From positions 3,520,106 through 3,584,105 of the forward strand of contig NZ_JTHL01000001.1 of assembly GCF_000818195.1 (NCBI RefSeq): a stretch of 64,000 nucleotides of DNA, given 5' to 3'. This stretch comes from Streptomyces sp. 150FB. Lineage in GTDB: Bacteria > Actinomycetota > Actinomycetes > Streptomycetales > Streptomycetaceae. Shown here one piece after another: positions 2,937 through 28,774 of the stretch. The notes beneath the pieces were generated by a model. That model was not told where the DNA came from, did no database searches, and saw only the letters and a program-made list of their open reading frames with translations. The position numbers were made by a program, and so were the translations under genes. How positions within the stretch are numbered: the stretch's first letter is position 1; each line of letters begins with the position of its first letter.

Positions 2937-3488
2937 ATGACCGACGGCAGTAAGGACGAGGAGCCACGCGAGCCGAGTGAGCCGGGCGAGCCGGGCGAGC
3001 CGGGCGAGCCACGCTGGCTCAGCGGCGAGGAACAGCGCGTCTGGCAGGCGTACCTCCAGGCCACGCACCTGCTGGAGGACCATCTCGACCGTCAGCTCCA
3101 GCGCGACGCCGGAATGCCGCACATCTACTACGCCCTGCTCGTCCACCTCTCCAGGGCGCCCCGGCGCCGGATGCGGATGACCGAGCTGGCCATGACCGCC
3201 AAGATCACCCGCTCGCGGCTCTCCCACGCGGTCACCCGGCTGGAGAACCACGGCTGGGTCGAGCGCGAGGACTGCCCGTCCGACAAGCGCGGGCAGAACG
3301 CGATCCTGACGCGGAAGGGCGAGGACGTGCTGCGGCGGTCGGCGCCCGCGCATGTCGCCGCCGTACGGCAGGCGATCTTCGACCGGCTCACCCCCGAGCA
3401 GGTCGGGCAGCTCGGCGAGATCATGCGGGTCATGGCGGAGGGGCTCCAGCCGGAGGGTACGGGCGCGGATCTGCCCTGGCGCCGCTGA
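2937..3488 (+). CDS. MarR-family transcriptional regulator
   Basis: A 183-residue winged-helix regulator. The core shows the MarR pattern LLVHLSRAPRRRMRMTELAMTA, the recognition-helix region SRLSHAVTRLENHGWVER, and wing DCPSDKRGQNAILT. The extreme N-terminus is an acidic EPSEPGEPGEPGEP stretch encoded by a 9-bp tandem repeat and is probably disordered. ATG at 2937 has GGAG 8 nt upstream; an in-frame GTG lies 9 nt earlier. It probably represses the divergent dioxygenase and itself. Confidence 0.88.
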   Translation: MTDGSKDEEPREPSEPGEPGEPGEPRWLSGEEQRVWQAYLQATHLLEDHLDRQLQRDAGMPHIYYALLVHLSRAPRRRMRMTELAMTAKITRSRLSHAVTRLENHGWVEREDCPSDKRGQNAILTRKGEDVLRRSAPAHVAAVRQAIFDRLTPEQVGQLGEIMRVMAEGLQPEGTGADLPWRR

Positions 3489-3515
3489 GTCGCGGCGGCA
3501 CCAGGGCAGATCCTT

Positions 3516-3547
3516 GGTGGAGCGGTGGAGCGGTGGAGCGGTGGAGC
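3516..3547. repeat. 8-bp tandem repeat (GGTGGAGC x4) between convergent genes
   Basis: Four perfect head-to-tail copies of GGTGGAGC lie just downstream of the marR stop, in the gap before the end of the convergent exporter gene. No function is evident. Confidence 0.85.
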
Positions 3548-3633
3548 GGGCGGAACGGCGGTACGGACAGGCAGTACGGCCGTACCGCCGCTGCGGCGTC
3601 GCCGCGTCGCAGCGGCGGCGTCAGCGCGTCCCG

Positions 3634-5181
3634 TCAGTGCATCGCCACCGGGATCCTGAGCTCGTCCTCGTCCCCGTCGGCCCCCTGCGTCTCCGAAGAG
3701 GAGACCTTCGAGGCACCGGGCCGTCCGGCGTTGATGAACGTCAGCGCGATCGCCGAGGCGACGACCAGGATGCCGACCGCCCACCAGATGGCGCTCGTGT
3801 AGCCGTGCACCAGGGCCTGTGCCTGGAACAGCTTCTGGTTGCCGCCGGCGGCGGCGGCCAGCGTGTGCCCGGCGACGTACGCCGTGGTGGCGGAGGCGGC
3901 GATCGTGTTCAGCAGTGCCGTACCGATCGCACCGCCCACCTGCTGCGAGGTGTTGACCATCGCCGAGGCGACACCCGCGTCCCGCGGCTCGATGCCGTGC
4001 GTGGCGAGCGACATGGCCGGCATGAACGCCGTACCCATACCGAGGCCGAGCAGCACCATGCCGGGCAGGATCACGCTGGCGTACGGCGAACCGACCTCCA
4101 GCCGCGTCAGCAGCAGCATGCCGACGGCGGCGAGGGCGAAGCCCGGGCCCATCAGCAGGCGGGCCGGGACGCGGTTCATCAGGCGGGCGCCGACCTGCGT
4201 CGAGCCCGTGACCATGGCGGCGACCATCGGCAGGAACGCGAAGCCGGTCTTGACCGACGAGTACCCCTGGACGACCTGGAGGTAGTAGGTCAGGAAGAGG
4301 AAGAGACCGAACATCCCGATGATGGCGAGGCCCAGCGACATGTAGATGCCGGCGCGGTTGCGGTTGGTGACCACCCGCAGCGGCAGCAGCGGCGCCTTGA
4401 CCTTCGACTCGACGAGGGCGAACGCGGCGAGCAGCACGACGGTCGCGACGAACAGGCCGATCGTCACCGGGTCGGACCAGCCGTCGGAGGCGGCGCGGGT
4501 GAACCCGTACACCAGCGAGACCAGGCCCAGGGTGGAGAGCACCACACCGGGGACGTCCAGCGGCGAGCGGTTACGGCCGCCCGCGGGCTCCCTGATCACG
4601 AAGAACGCGCCGAGGGCGGCGATGATCGCGAACGGGATGTTGACGAAGAACGTCCAGCGCCAGTTCAGGTACTCGGTCAGGAATCCACCGAGGAGCAGAC
4701 CGACGGCGCCACCGCCACCGGCGATCGCACCGAAGATGCCGAACGCCTTCGCGCGCTCCTTGGCGTCGGTGAAGGTCACGGCGAGCAGCGAGAGCGCGGC
4801 CGGCGCGAGCAGCGCGCCGAAGAGGCCCTGAGCGGCACGGGAGGTGAGCAGCATCGCCTCGTTGCCGGCGGCGCCACCGACGGCGGAGGCGGCCGCGAAG
4901 CCGAGCAGGCCGATGACGAACGCGCGCTTACGGCCCCACAGGTCGCCGATGCGGCCACCGAAGAGGAGCAGACCACCGAAGGCCAGCGCGTAGGCCGTGA
5001 TGACCCACTGCTTGTTGGCGTCGGATATGTGGAGGTCGGTCTGTGCGTGCGGCAGTGCGATGTTCACGATCGTCGCATCGAGCACGACCATCAACTGGGC
5101 GAGCGCGATGAACACCAGCGCCGTCCAGCGCTTGGGGTCGGTGTGTCCGATATCCGATCGGACTTCTGCTGTTTTTGGCAT
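3634..5181 (-). CDS. MFS multidrug exporter, DHA2 (14-TM, EmrB/QacA) family
   Basis: A 515-residue proton-driven exporter with about fourteen hydrophobic segments. The start ALAQLMVVLDATIVNIALPHAQ is the classical DHA2 motif D1, and motif A appears as GGRIGDLWGRKRAF. ATG at 5181 is used because AGGTGG lies about 9 nt upstream; a GTG 12 nt earlier overlaps that ribosome-binding site. The upstream gene on the same strand encodes a TetR protein, so this is probably an inducible drug efflux unit. The substrate is unknown. Confidence 0.9.
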   Translation of the reverse strand: MPKTAEVRSDIGHTDPKRWTALVFIALAQLMVVLDATIVNIALPHAQTDLHISDANKQWVITAYALAFGGLLLFGGRIGDLWGRKRAFVIGLLGFAAASAVGGAAGNEAMLLTSRAAQGLFGALLAPAALSLLAVTFTDAKERAKAFGIFGAIAGGGGAVGLLLGGFLTEYLNWRWTFFVNIPFAIIAALGAFFVIREPAGGRNRSPLDVPGVVLSTLGLVSLVYGFTRAASDGWSDPVTIGLFVATVVLLAAFALVESKVKAPLLPLRVVTNRNRAGIYMSLGLAIIGMFGLFLFLTYYLQVVQGYSSVKTGFAFLPMVAAMVTGSTQVGARLMNRVPARLLMGPGFALAAVGMLLLTRLEVGSPYASVILPGMVLLGLGMGTAFMPAMSLATHGIEPRDAGVASAMVNTSQQVGGAIGTALLNTIAASATTAYVAGHTLAAAAGGNQKLFQAQALVHGYTSAIWWAVGILVVASAIALTFINAGRPGASKVSSSETQGADGDEDELRIPVAMH

Positions 5182-26666: not shown

Positions 26667-26680
26667 CTCTTGTCCGACGG

Positions 26681-26730
26681 ACCGCTGCGGATCGCTGCGG
26701 ATCGCTGCGGACCACGACGAACCGCTGCGG
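26681..26730. repeat. 10-bp tandem repeat (A[C/T]CGCTGCGG)
   Basis: Three contiguous 10-bp units, a diverged unit and a further match fill the 65-bp gap between the convergent regulator and hydrolase genes. Confidence 0.8.
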
Positions 26731-26731
26731 G

Positions 26732-27988
26732 TCACTCGCTCTTCGCGAACACCTCGTCCAGGAAGTCGAACTCGATCTGGTTGGCCAGCCCCCGGTTGTT
26801 CACCGCACAGTGCGCCTCGCCGCCCTCGAACTCCTCGATGAAGCGCTCGGCCTTCACGCAGGACAGCCGCTCGTAGAACCTATGGCCGTCGCTCGCCAGC
26901 GAACCCTCCCCGGCGCCGCCGATGTTCAGCAGCGGGCAGGTGATCCTGTCCTCCAGCCCCCAGATGTCGAACTCACCGAGGTAGTCGATGTAGTCCTTGA
27001 TCGGGCGGTCGAGCATGCCGAAACGCTCCCGCACATCCCCGAGGAGCAGCCGCGCCATCGGCGACGACAGGTCGACCCGCGATTCGAGATCGTCGATCTC
27101 GGCGTACGACTCGTTCTCCTTGATCCCGATCAGGTTGAGGATCGCGGGCCGGAACGACGGCGTGAGAGTACTGGTCACCACCGCCTTGATCCGCTTCTCG
27201 GTGGCGACGGCCCGGGGGACGAACAGGCCGCCCATGCTGTATCCGGTGAGCGAGAGACGTTCCGGATCGACATCCGTCCGGCTCAGGGCGTGGTCGACGA
27301 CGTAACCGATCTGGACGTCGAGGTCGGGCCGGAACGTCAGCTCGGGGTTGGAGTAGTACGCCCCGCGCTGACCGGGGAGTTCGACGATGAACGCGTTGTA
27401 GCCCCGGCGGACGGCGGCGGCGCCGGTGAAGAAGTACAGCTCCTCGGCGGTCATGTCGCCTCCGCCGATGATGATCGCCGTGGCGCGCGGCTCCACCGGA
27501 CCGCTCGGCTTCACGAAGTACCCCGGGAGAACCGCGCCGTTCTCGTACGGGACTTCCACCGTCTCGAACGGAATCCCGGAGAGAGTCATGCCCGTCCGGA
27601 AGCAGTGACGGTTCCTCTCCCAGGTGGGAATCCTCGTGTCGTCGGCCCGCTCCAGGAACATGCCGGCCGCGCGCCAGTACGTCGAAGCGCGCAGGTACGC
27701 CTCGCTCGCGCTGACCTCATGCCCCTTGGCGAGGCTTTCCGTCGCGATGCCCTCCACCCGCCGCGCCGTTTCCGACCACGCGTCGTACCACCCGGCGAGG
27801 TCGCCGTCCGTGATCTTCGAAGCGGTCGCGTAGCACTCGCCGACGGCGGCGCCGCCGTTGTCCGCGGACCCCAGGGCGAGCGCCAGTTGGAAGTCGAAGT
27901 TCGACCCGAAGCGCCGCGGCAGACCGGCCGTCGACATGAAGACATCCGCATCGCCCTGCACGGTCGCCTTGGCGTTGTCCGTAACCAT
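26732..27988 (-). CDS. Alpha/beta hydrolase with N-terminal cap
   Basis: A 418-residue serine hydrolase. An N-terminal helical cap (about residues 1-140) precedes the hydrolase core with an oxyanion-region IIIGGGDMTAEE, nucleophile motif LTGYSMGG and late EGGEAHCAVN histidine region. The arrangement resembles FrsA/DUF1100 and dihydropseudooxynicotine-hydrolase-like enzymes. ATG at 27988 has AAAGGGG upstream. It is divergent from a TetR gene, with two palindromic operators in the gap. The substrate is unknown, perhaps the inducer. Confidence 0.82.
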   Translation of the reverse strand: MVTDNAKATVQGDADVFMSTAGLPRRFGSNFDFQLALALGSADNGGAAVGECYATASKITDGDLAGWYDAWSETARRVEGIATESLAKGHEVSASEAYLRASTYWRAAGMFLERADDTRIPTWERNRHCFRTGMTLSGIPFETVEVPYENGAVLPGYFVKPSGPVEPRATAIIIGGGDMTAEELYFFTGAAAVRRGYNAFIVELPGQRGAYYSNPELTFRPDLDVQIGYVVDHALSRTDVDPERLSLTGYSMGGLFVPRAVATEKRIKAVVTSTLTPSFRPAILNLIGIKENESYAEIDDLESRVDLSSPMARLLLGDVRERFGMLDRPIKDYIDYLGEFDIWGLEDRITCPLLNIGGAGEGSLASDGHRFYERLSCVKAERFIEEFEGGEAHCAVNNRGLANQIEFDFLDEVFAKSE

Positions 27989-28011
27989 TCCAGCCCCTTT
28001 TCCGAACCAGT

Positions 28012-28031
28012 AAGATGCAGAACTGCATCTT
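28012..28031. promoter_or_regulatory. Perfect palindromic operator O1
   Basis: AAGATGCAGAACTGCATCTT is a perfect inverted repeat (9-bp arms, 2-bp centre). It lies 23 nt upstream of the hydrolase start and is matched by a second site 47 bp away at the tetR start. Confidence 0.8.
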
Positions 28032-28058
28032 GTGAGACTCACCGTAGGGCACCCTGTT

Positions 28059-28078
28059 AAGATGCGCAAGTGCATCCT
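28059..28078. promoter_or_regulatory. Operator O2 overlapping -10 and start codon of tetR
   Basis: AAGATGCGCAAGTGCATCCT is a near-palindrome related to O1. It covers most of a candidate -10 (TAAGAT, 28058-28063) and the GTG start (28070) of tetR. Binding here would block initiation directly. Confidence 0.75.
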
Positions 28079-28711
28079 AAAGAAGCTCACTCAACAGCTC
28101 AGTCGACAGCCCAGCCGGCGGCTCAGACGGCACAGGGACGGCGTCGACGCGGCGCGGCGCTGGAAGAGGCCCTGCTCACAGCGGCGTGGGAGGTGCTGCG
28201 CGACAACGGCTATGCCGGATTCACCCTGGACGCCGTGGCCGGCCGGGCAGGCACCAGCCGACCGGTCATCGCCCGCCGCTGGGCCGGCCGGCACGACCTG
28301 CTGCACGCGACCATCGCGCACATCGGCGCGAGGCAACCGTCCCCGACACCCGACACCGGAAGCCTGCGCGGTGATCTGATCGCCCTGCTGCGCGAGCTGA
28401 ACGCGTCCCGCCTCGACCTCGCGACCGTGCTGGGTGTGCAACTCGGCGGCTACTACCAGGAGACCGGCACGTCACTGTCCTACCTCCGCGATGTCCTGCT
28501 CAGCGGCGAGGACGCGGTACTCGACCGGATCCTCGGCGCCGCGGTCGAGCGCGGCGAAGCCGACCCCGAACGGCTGACCTCACGCATCCGGTCCCTGCCG
28601 GTCGACCTCCTGCGCCACCACGTCTTTCTGACGTTCCAGCCGATGCCGGACGACGGCATCGAGGAAATCGTGGACACGATCTTCCTGCCCCTCGTCCGAC
28701 CCGCACCGTGA
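28070..28711 (+). CDS. TetR-family regulator, probably leaderless
   Basis: A 213-residue TetR protein. After a Gln/Ala/Thr-rich N-tail the helix-turn-helix reads EEALLTAAWEVLRDNGYAGFTLDAVAGRAGTSRPVIARRWAGRHDLL. The C-terminal part belongs to the TetR_C_16-like group. GTG at 28070 is the only sensible in-frame start. It has no Shine-Dalgarno, and TAAGAT sits 6 nt before it, indicating a leaderless mRNA. The start codon lies inside operator O2, so tight autorepression is likely. It also probably represses the divergent hydrolase. Confidence 0.85.
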   Translation: MHPKEAHSTAQSTAQPAAQTAQGRRRRGAALEEALLTAAWEVLRDNGYAGFTLDAVAGRAGTSRPVIARRWAGRHDLLHATIAHIGARQPSPTPDTGSLRGDLIALLRELNASRLDLATVLGVQLGGYYQETGTSLSYLRDVLLSGEDAVLDRILGAAVERGEADPERLTSRIRSLPVDLLRHHVFLTFQPMPDDGIEEIVDTIFLPLVRPAP

Positions 28712-28774
28712 CCGGACAGCTCGGCCCGCACCGTGACCGGACAGTCCGCCCCGCACCGTGACCGAGCGGTCCGC
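28700..28774. repeat. 25-bp tandem repeat (three units) at the tetR 3' end
   Basis: Three consecutive 25-bp units begin inside the last codons of tetR and continue past its stop; the third is partly diverged. Each unit contains CCGCACCGTGACCG. Confidence 0.85.

Follow-up and report, generated by a model that had tools for sequence, protein, structure and literature searches.

Does a predicted operator that contains the start codon of a TetR-family repressor gene serve this gene alone, or does it control the divergent neighbour as well? The question arises in a 64,000-nucleotide stretch of the Streptomyces sp. 150FB genome (hereafter the window), in which a gap of 81 bp (27989-28069) separates a minus-strand hydrolase-like gene from a plus-strand tetR gene. 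The tetR gene (28070..28711, plus strand) encodes a 213-aa regulator that belongs to the TetR family according to the Pfam profile PF00440 TetR_N (36.4 bits, cut-off 24) and also carries PF16859 TetR_C_11 (69.1 bits, cut-off 32). The divergent gene, which is the predicted target (26732..27988, minus strand, an ORF with its ATG at 27988), encodes a 418-aa alpha/beta-hydrolase-like protein; the Pfam profile Abhydrolase_6 scored 20.9 bits, below its cut-off of 26.3, and the comparison with PDB 3fnb_A (acylaminoacyl peptidase SMU_737) gave an E value of 8.6e-33. Short repeats are found at the far ends of both genes, namely a tandem-like run of GATCGCTGCG units at 26679-26732, just past the end of a gene and next to the hydrolase 3' end, and, at 28700-28769, a 20-nt unit (CCCGCACCGTGACCGGACAG and variants) present in three copies with a 25-bp period, of which the first holds the tetR stop codon.

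Two related candidate operators

The first candidate operator, O1 (28012..28031), reads AAGATGCAG-AA-CTGCATCTT. A preliminary description of this DNA had called it a perfect 20-bp palindrome, which holds for the two 9-bp arms, as these pair at 9/9 positions, but not for the central AA, which is not self-complementary and reduces the symmetry to 18/20. The second candidate, O2 (28059..28078; AAGATGCGCAAGTGCATCCT), pairs at 7/9 arm positions and is a copy of O1 at an offset of 47 bp; it retains AAGATGC and GCATC, while carrying GTG for CTG and CAAG instead of GAAC in its centre. That O2 is related to O1 and overlaps both a -10-like box and the tetR start codon was confirmed, with TAAGAT and GTG at the positions claimed.

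When the 92-nt region 27989-28080 was shuffled 20,000 times with dinucleotides preserved, 22 shuffles contained a palindrome whose 9-bp arms paired perfectly (spacer 0-6), and none (0/20,000) contained such a palindrome together with a second copy matching at 14/20 positions or more. In the GC-rich window as a whole, perfect 9-bp arms are by themselves no rarity: 16 matches at 11 places were found, compared to a mean of 5.8 and a maximum of 13 in 30 shuffles. The strict pattern AAGATGCRNNNNYGCATCYT with zero mismatches matched O1 and O2 only in the 9.8-Mb genome. Allowing up to two mismatches yielded 26 strand-matches, as many as a reversed control pattern (also 26), and we consequently rejected additional operators elsewhere in the genome. 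A similar site at position 8929651 of the genome lies within a coding frame.

The operator call is backed by conservation in relatives (described below) and by covariation with the repressor itself. Codons 62-71 of tetR (28253..28282, plus strand) encode TSRPVIARRW, which, from our knowledge of TetR_N, we take to be the recognition helix. Where the half-sites are of the AGATGC or GGATGC type, residue 68 of this predicted helix is A, N or S in 11/13 loci, and Arg occupies position 64 in 11/13; among the other loci, residue 68 is Tyr in 42/42 and Arg is found at position 64 in 3/42. Operator type covaries with the predicted recognition helix, in the sense of a correlation along a tree.

The tetR start codon and its predicted promoter

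The GTG at 28070..28072 (plus strand) is the start codon of tetR and, if the mRNA is leaderless, also its predicted transcription start. An in-frame TAA (28058..28060, plus strand) closes the frame upstream, and from there on no other in-frame ATG, GTG or TTG occurs before codon 29, so that this GTG is the only usable standard start. On these grounds we discarded a downstream start, which the preliminary description had named as a refuting outcome and which the sequence makes very unlikely. The box TAAGAT (28058-28063) ends 6 nt before the GTG and is preceded by TG and one further base, which together form a predicted extended -10, TG-T-TAAGAT (28055..28063, plus strand). The -10 motif reported for S. 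coelicolor is TANNNT (excerpt of PMC4895711), and in 9/9 loci of a group of close relatives (see below) a TANNNT ends 6 nt before the GTG, as the sole TANNNT at a shared position, with TG two bases ahead of it in 8/9.

No Shine-Dalgarno sequence precedes the GTG of the window, where AAGGAGGT is matched by no more than AAG (3 nt); in the close group the longest match is 3 nt in 7/8 genes and 4 nt in 1/8. Taking a 5' leader under 9-10 nt as the criterion for a leaderless mRNA, we consider leaderless autorepression of tetR to be a prediction that these sequence comparisons support well. Published work on start codons counts against a leaderless GTG, given that the leaderless mRNAs of S. coelicolor favour AUG (76.4%; excerpt of PMC4895711) and that a change from ATG to GTG strongly cut the expression of leaderless acuR (excerpt of PMC3017554).

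Conservation of the control region in relatives

Homologues were found in 54/295 same-genus genomes (E<=1e-20), in 6/396 genomes of a phylum sample (E<=1e-40) and in 22/148 genomes from the genus of a Nocardia locus, L048 (E<=1e-35), and named genome contigs contributed 8 loci. From a subset of these matches we compared 61 distinct upstream regions, five of which had no assignable O2 and were left out (L055, L040, L044, L043 and L046), resulting in 56 O2 loci, for which the O2 positions were set by hand from a palindrome listing. An O1 counterpart was present at 50 of these 56 loci, the remaining six falling below the O1 threshold. A fixed helical phase between the two sites was rejected, as their distances ranged from 34 to 48 bp, with 47 bp in 22/50.

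The close group comprised nine loci, from the window, S. niphimycinicus, S. sp. AcH 505, N. albiluteola, N. colli, N. transvalensis, genome G697, Winogradskya consettensis and Fodinicola feengrottensis, the last with a broken tetR frame. O1, O2 and GTGCATCC within O2 were present in 9/9 of them, although the divergent gene differs. Moreover, the His codon at position 2 was CAT in 8/8 intact close genes, whereas the other His codons of the same eight genes, from codon 29 on, were CAC in 36/38 cases and CAT in 2/38; this bias points to selection for the DNA sequence and not for the peptide.

A wider scan with AGATGC-n5-TGCATCC, a pattern blind to the O2 of genome G150 (AGGATGC), gave matches in 42/392 same-genus and 25/394 same-class genomes, two draws that overlap, and the GCGCAAG form of O2 appeared among these matches in the window's own genome only. 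Three further observations were made in passing. AGATGCCGAACTGCATCC recurred in many of the matched same-genus Streptomyces genomes and is perhaps a conserved coding stretch. Upstream of tetR in Streptomyces sp. AcH 505 (L052), O1 occurs twice (G684:C1:3680086 and 3680235), once on each side of a run of masked bases, which gives the impression of a partly duplicated control region. Finally, a TetR relative in the proteobacterium Pseudoxanthomonas sp. J31 (L053) has retained a pair of AAGATGC-type sites at a distance of 46 bp, the second of which includes an ATG, but no divergent promoter pair.

As to the divergent gene, its N-terminal sequence identified an FAD monooxygenase in 6/9 close loci (L018, L048, L049, L050, L054 and L080), while it is a hydrolase in the window and a DHA2 pump in Winogradskya, and is unreadable because of masked bases in S. 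sp. AcH 505. The divergent proteins of two relatives were covered by a profile scan, in which that of L048 matched PRK06184.1 (516.6 bits, cut-off 476) and that of L051 matched TIGR00711 (334.4 bits, cut-off 230.2). A divergent hydrolase is also found in the distant relative L042 (32% identical over residues 39-412). In N. colli, a second O1/O2 pair with a distance of 47 bp (L157, G682 contig, 2990-3056) precedes a second FAD monooxygenase (ORF 3078-4619), and mere first codons of a tetR-like frame are left beside it, which suggests that this monooxygenase is a second target. The neighbour genes, encoding a hydrolase, FAD monooxygenases or a DHA2 pump, hint at a response to a small molecule.

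A predicted divergent promoter that overlaps O2

On the minus strand, the centre of O2 (GCGCAA on the plus strand) contains a predicted -35, TTGCGC (28064..28069), located 17 nt from a predicted -10, TACGGT (28041..28046), and together these would form the promoter of the hydrolase gene. TTGCGC matches TTGACA at 3/6 positions and is hence a weak -35, and a scan with the sigma-70 consensus found no promoter here. Across the family, 49/56 O2 loci have a minus-strand TTGNNN-(16 to 19)-TANNNT whose -35 falls at O2, compared to 3.4 loci on average and at most 9 when the 27 nt upstream of O2 were shuffled in 500 trials; in the close group 8/9 loci have it, compared to 0.6 on average and at most 5 after shuffling. 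These controls do not allow for the fact that the relatives share ancestry and are not independent. Relative to the first O2 base, the minus-strand TANNNT bases at -18, -14 and -13 are kept in 8/9, 8/9 and 9/9 close loci, with the three bases in between varying. The register of the 49 pairs was -18 with a spacing of 17 in 32 cases, -18 with a spacing of 18 in nine, -17 in seven and -30 in one, the last being the deviating place in L041.

Within the close group, TTG(C/T)GC-17-TANNNT occurs in 8/9 loci, Winogradskya (L051) being the exception, and the spacing is constant at 17 in those eight while the O1-O2 distance is 43, 44, 47 or 48 bp. One clade carries TTGACG-(17 or 18)-TACTCT, which is nearer to the textbook -35. 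In addition, CAA is present in 48/50 O2 centres but in 1/50 O1 centres (5/50 when O1 is read in the opposite orientation), and the palindrome itself therefore does not need it. The promoter pair was missing at seven of the 56 O2 loci (L051, L025, L053, L097, L099, L042 and L045), and of the six loci without a detected O1, three also lack the pair (L025, L097 and L099) and three have it (L084, L085 and L041).

The simplest reading of these patterns is that the centre of O2 very probably doubles as the -35 of the divergent gene's promoter, and O2 would therefore most likely control both genes. The earlier proposal that O2 serves tetR autorepression is borne out insofar as O2 covers the tetR -10-like box and the GTG; it is incomplete, however, in that O2 probably covers the divergent -35 as well, as indicated by the 49/56 pairs.

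Position of the start codon within the family

O2 contains an ATG or GTG at 14/56 loci, where the frame then reaches the conserved domain without a further start codon; L084 and L085, in which the ATG is one base earlier in O2, were assigned to this embedded group by eye. At 35/56 loci, the codon at the O2 place is not a start and the gene begins 28-40 nt (in three cases 50-52 nt) past the first O2 base, preceded by a Shine-Dalgarno core of 4 nt or more, and the start class was ambiguous for 7/56. We placed these states on a maximum-likelihood tree of 59 proteins, compared from the codon 29 anchor onward (L043 and L054 left out), in which the window's clade of eight has a support of 98/91. At least three changes between the embedded and the leadered state are required, two of which are forced by the starred branches alone, while 500 label shuffles gave a mean of 12.8 changes and none as low as three. 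The first count had scored all rows without an embedded start as Shine-Dalgarno-led, and the recount dropped the seven ambiguous ones (7/56); the number remained three with clear rows only, or when five long or uncertain rows were omitted.

The two classes also differ in their TANNNT boxes, which stand at the right distance before the start place in 12/14 embedded versus 8/35 leadered loci, and five bases further upstream in 0/14 embedded versus 15/35 leadered loci, in counts and Fisher tests that ignore kinship. Leaderless embedded starts would be expected to show such a placement. We tentatively propose, at somewhat worse than even odds, that the repressor start codon moves repeatedly between a leaderless site (ATG or GTG) in the operator, at the predicted transcription start, and a site ~30 nt downstream behind a Shine-Dalgarno sequence, and that this would set the amount of repressor while the ~24-bp element keeps its four predicted jobs, serving as operator, as -10 and start codon of the repressor gene, and as -35 for the neighbour.

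Proposed mechanism and alternative explanations

Taken together, we consider it probable (roughly 0.8) that the 81-bp gap is a divergent, jointly repressed control region for the hydrolase-like gene and tetR, with a TetR-family protein acting at O1 and O2; binding, the transcription starts, repression and the ligand are what we infer. The protein would bind both sites, presumably as dimers. When bound to O2 it would cover three elements of its own, presumably leaderless, gene, namely the -10, the GTG and the predicted transcription start, as well as the -35 of the hydrolase promoter on the opposite strand; when bound to O1, which lies just downstream of the predicted hydrolase start, it would sit at the beginning of the hydrolase transcript. 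A small molecule would presumably release the protein and thereby switch both genes on. If this holds true, a single base change in this short element could alter repressor binding, two promoters and the translation start together, and the evolution of an element with so many roles would be tightly constrained. A family with and without an operator-embedded start would also offer a natural experiment on the leaderless repressor genes that are frequent in actinobacteria.

Alternatively, O2 might serve tetR autorepression and O1 the divergent gene, with the CAA before the GTG having no promoter role. This would fit the coverage of the tetR -10-like box and start codon by O2, the weakness of TTGCGC as a -35, and the missing register at L051 and six other O2 loci. 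Yet, it leaves the contrast between O2 and O1 centres in CAA content (48/50 against 1/50) as well as the TTGNNN-(16 to 19)-TANNNT pairs at 49/56 O2 sites (shuffled mean 3.4) without an explanation, and we regard it as unlikely. Slightly less likely still is that the tetR transcript starts further upstream and carries a leader, the GTG being translated without a Shine-Dalgarno sequence and O2 acting as a roadblock within the leader. A second plus-strand TANNNT (TAAGAT) does exist at 28011-28016, and many distant relatives have a leadered start codon; however, that box is in place in 1/9 close loci against 9/9 for the box at O2, and the AAGGAGGT matches before the GTG are as short as described above (3 nt in 7/8, 4 nt in 1/8).

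We deem it highly improbable that the O1/O2 repeats arose by chance or belong to another regulator. Perfect 9-bp arms at 11 places in the GC-rich window and the one similar genomic site inside a coding frame would be compatible with such an origin, but the O1/O2 pair goes with this TetR family across genera and neighbours, the operator covaries with the helix, and the pair appeared in 0/20,000 shuffles. Joint repression of both genes through O1 and O2 is the reading that we prefer, and what is added here is the predicted fusion, in ~24 bp, of an operator, the repressor's own -10, its own start codon and its neighbour's -35, together with the possible movement of the start codon in the family.

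Comparison with known systems

The statements on published systems in this section draw on excerpts of the cited papers. Like the window, the Tn10 tetR/tetA system consists of a divergent repressor and target with two operators that overlap the promoters, of which one operator shuts both (PMC3037858), the operators, the promoters and the joint shut-off being predicted in the case of the window, and its TetR-tetA gap is likewise 81 bp (PMC3511530). In contrast, the Tn10 operators are 15 bp long, whereas those of the window span ~20 bp, have another sequence and go with a TetR_C_11 protein, no tetracycline pump and a start codon inside one operator. The tetR of Tn1721 resembles the window gene in that it encodes a TetR repressor and lacks a 5' leader (mentioned in PMC3848588, PMC3017554 and PMC4681348), a state that was measured there and is predicted here. 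AcuR is, as is predicted for the window regulator, a TetR-family autorepressor with a leaderless mRNA and an inverted repeat that overlaps the promoter and is kept among relatives, but it differs in forming an operon with its targets instead of a divergent pair, in its ATG start and in its operator, TAATAGAC-n6-GTCTATTA (PMC3017554).

With regard to leaderless transcription in S. coelicolor, ~21% of primary starts give leaderless mRNAs, and TetR-family genes were singled out (PMC4895711), while a second study described 264 leaderless mRNAs with no functional group enriched (PMC4681348); the excerpts of these two studies make no mention of operators over start codons. None of the Table 2 operators of seven regulators in the excerpt of PMC3511530 resembles AAGATGC-n6-GCATCTT, and among the literature matches listed there was no published description of this operator, which does not imply its absence in print. 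PMC3511530 also reported on Streptomyces TetR-family regulators whose distance to a divergent gene is below 200 bp, and in 5/5 tested cases this gene was repressed by the regulator. ActR, SCO4099, SCO7222, SCO3367 and SGR3979 are like the window in gene order and in a gap of less than 200 bp, and they repress the divergent gene, as is predicted for the window, several of them with two or three operators (PMC3511530). Leaderless TetR-family repressors were already known from Tn1721 tetR and AcuR, and, by analogy, the window system may work like Tn10, these leaderless TetR-family cases and the divergent Streptomyces regulators.
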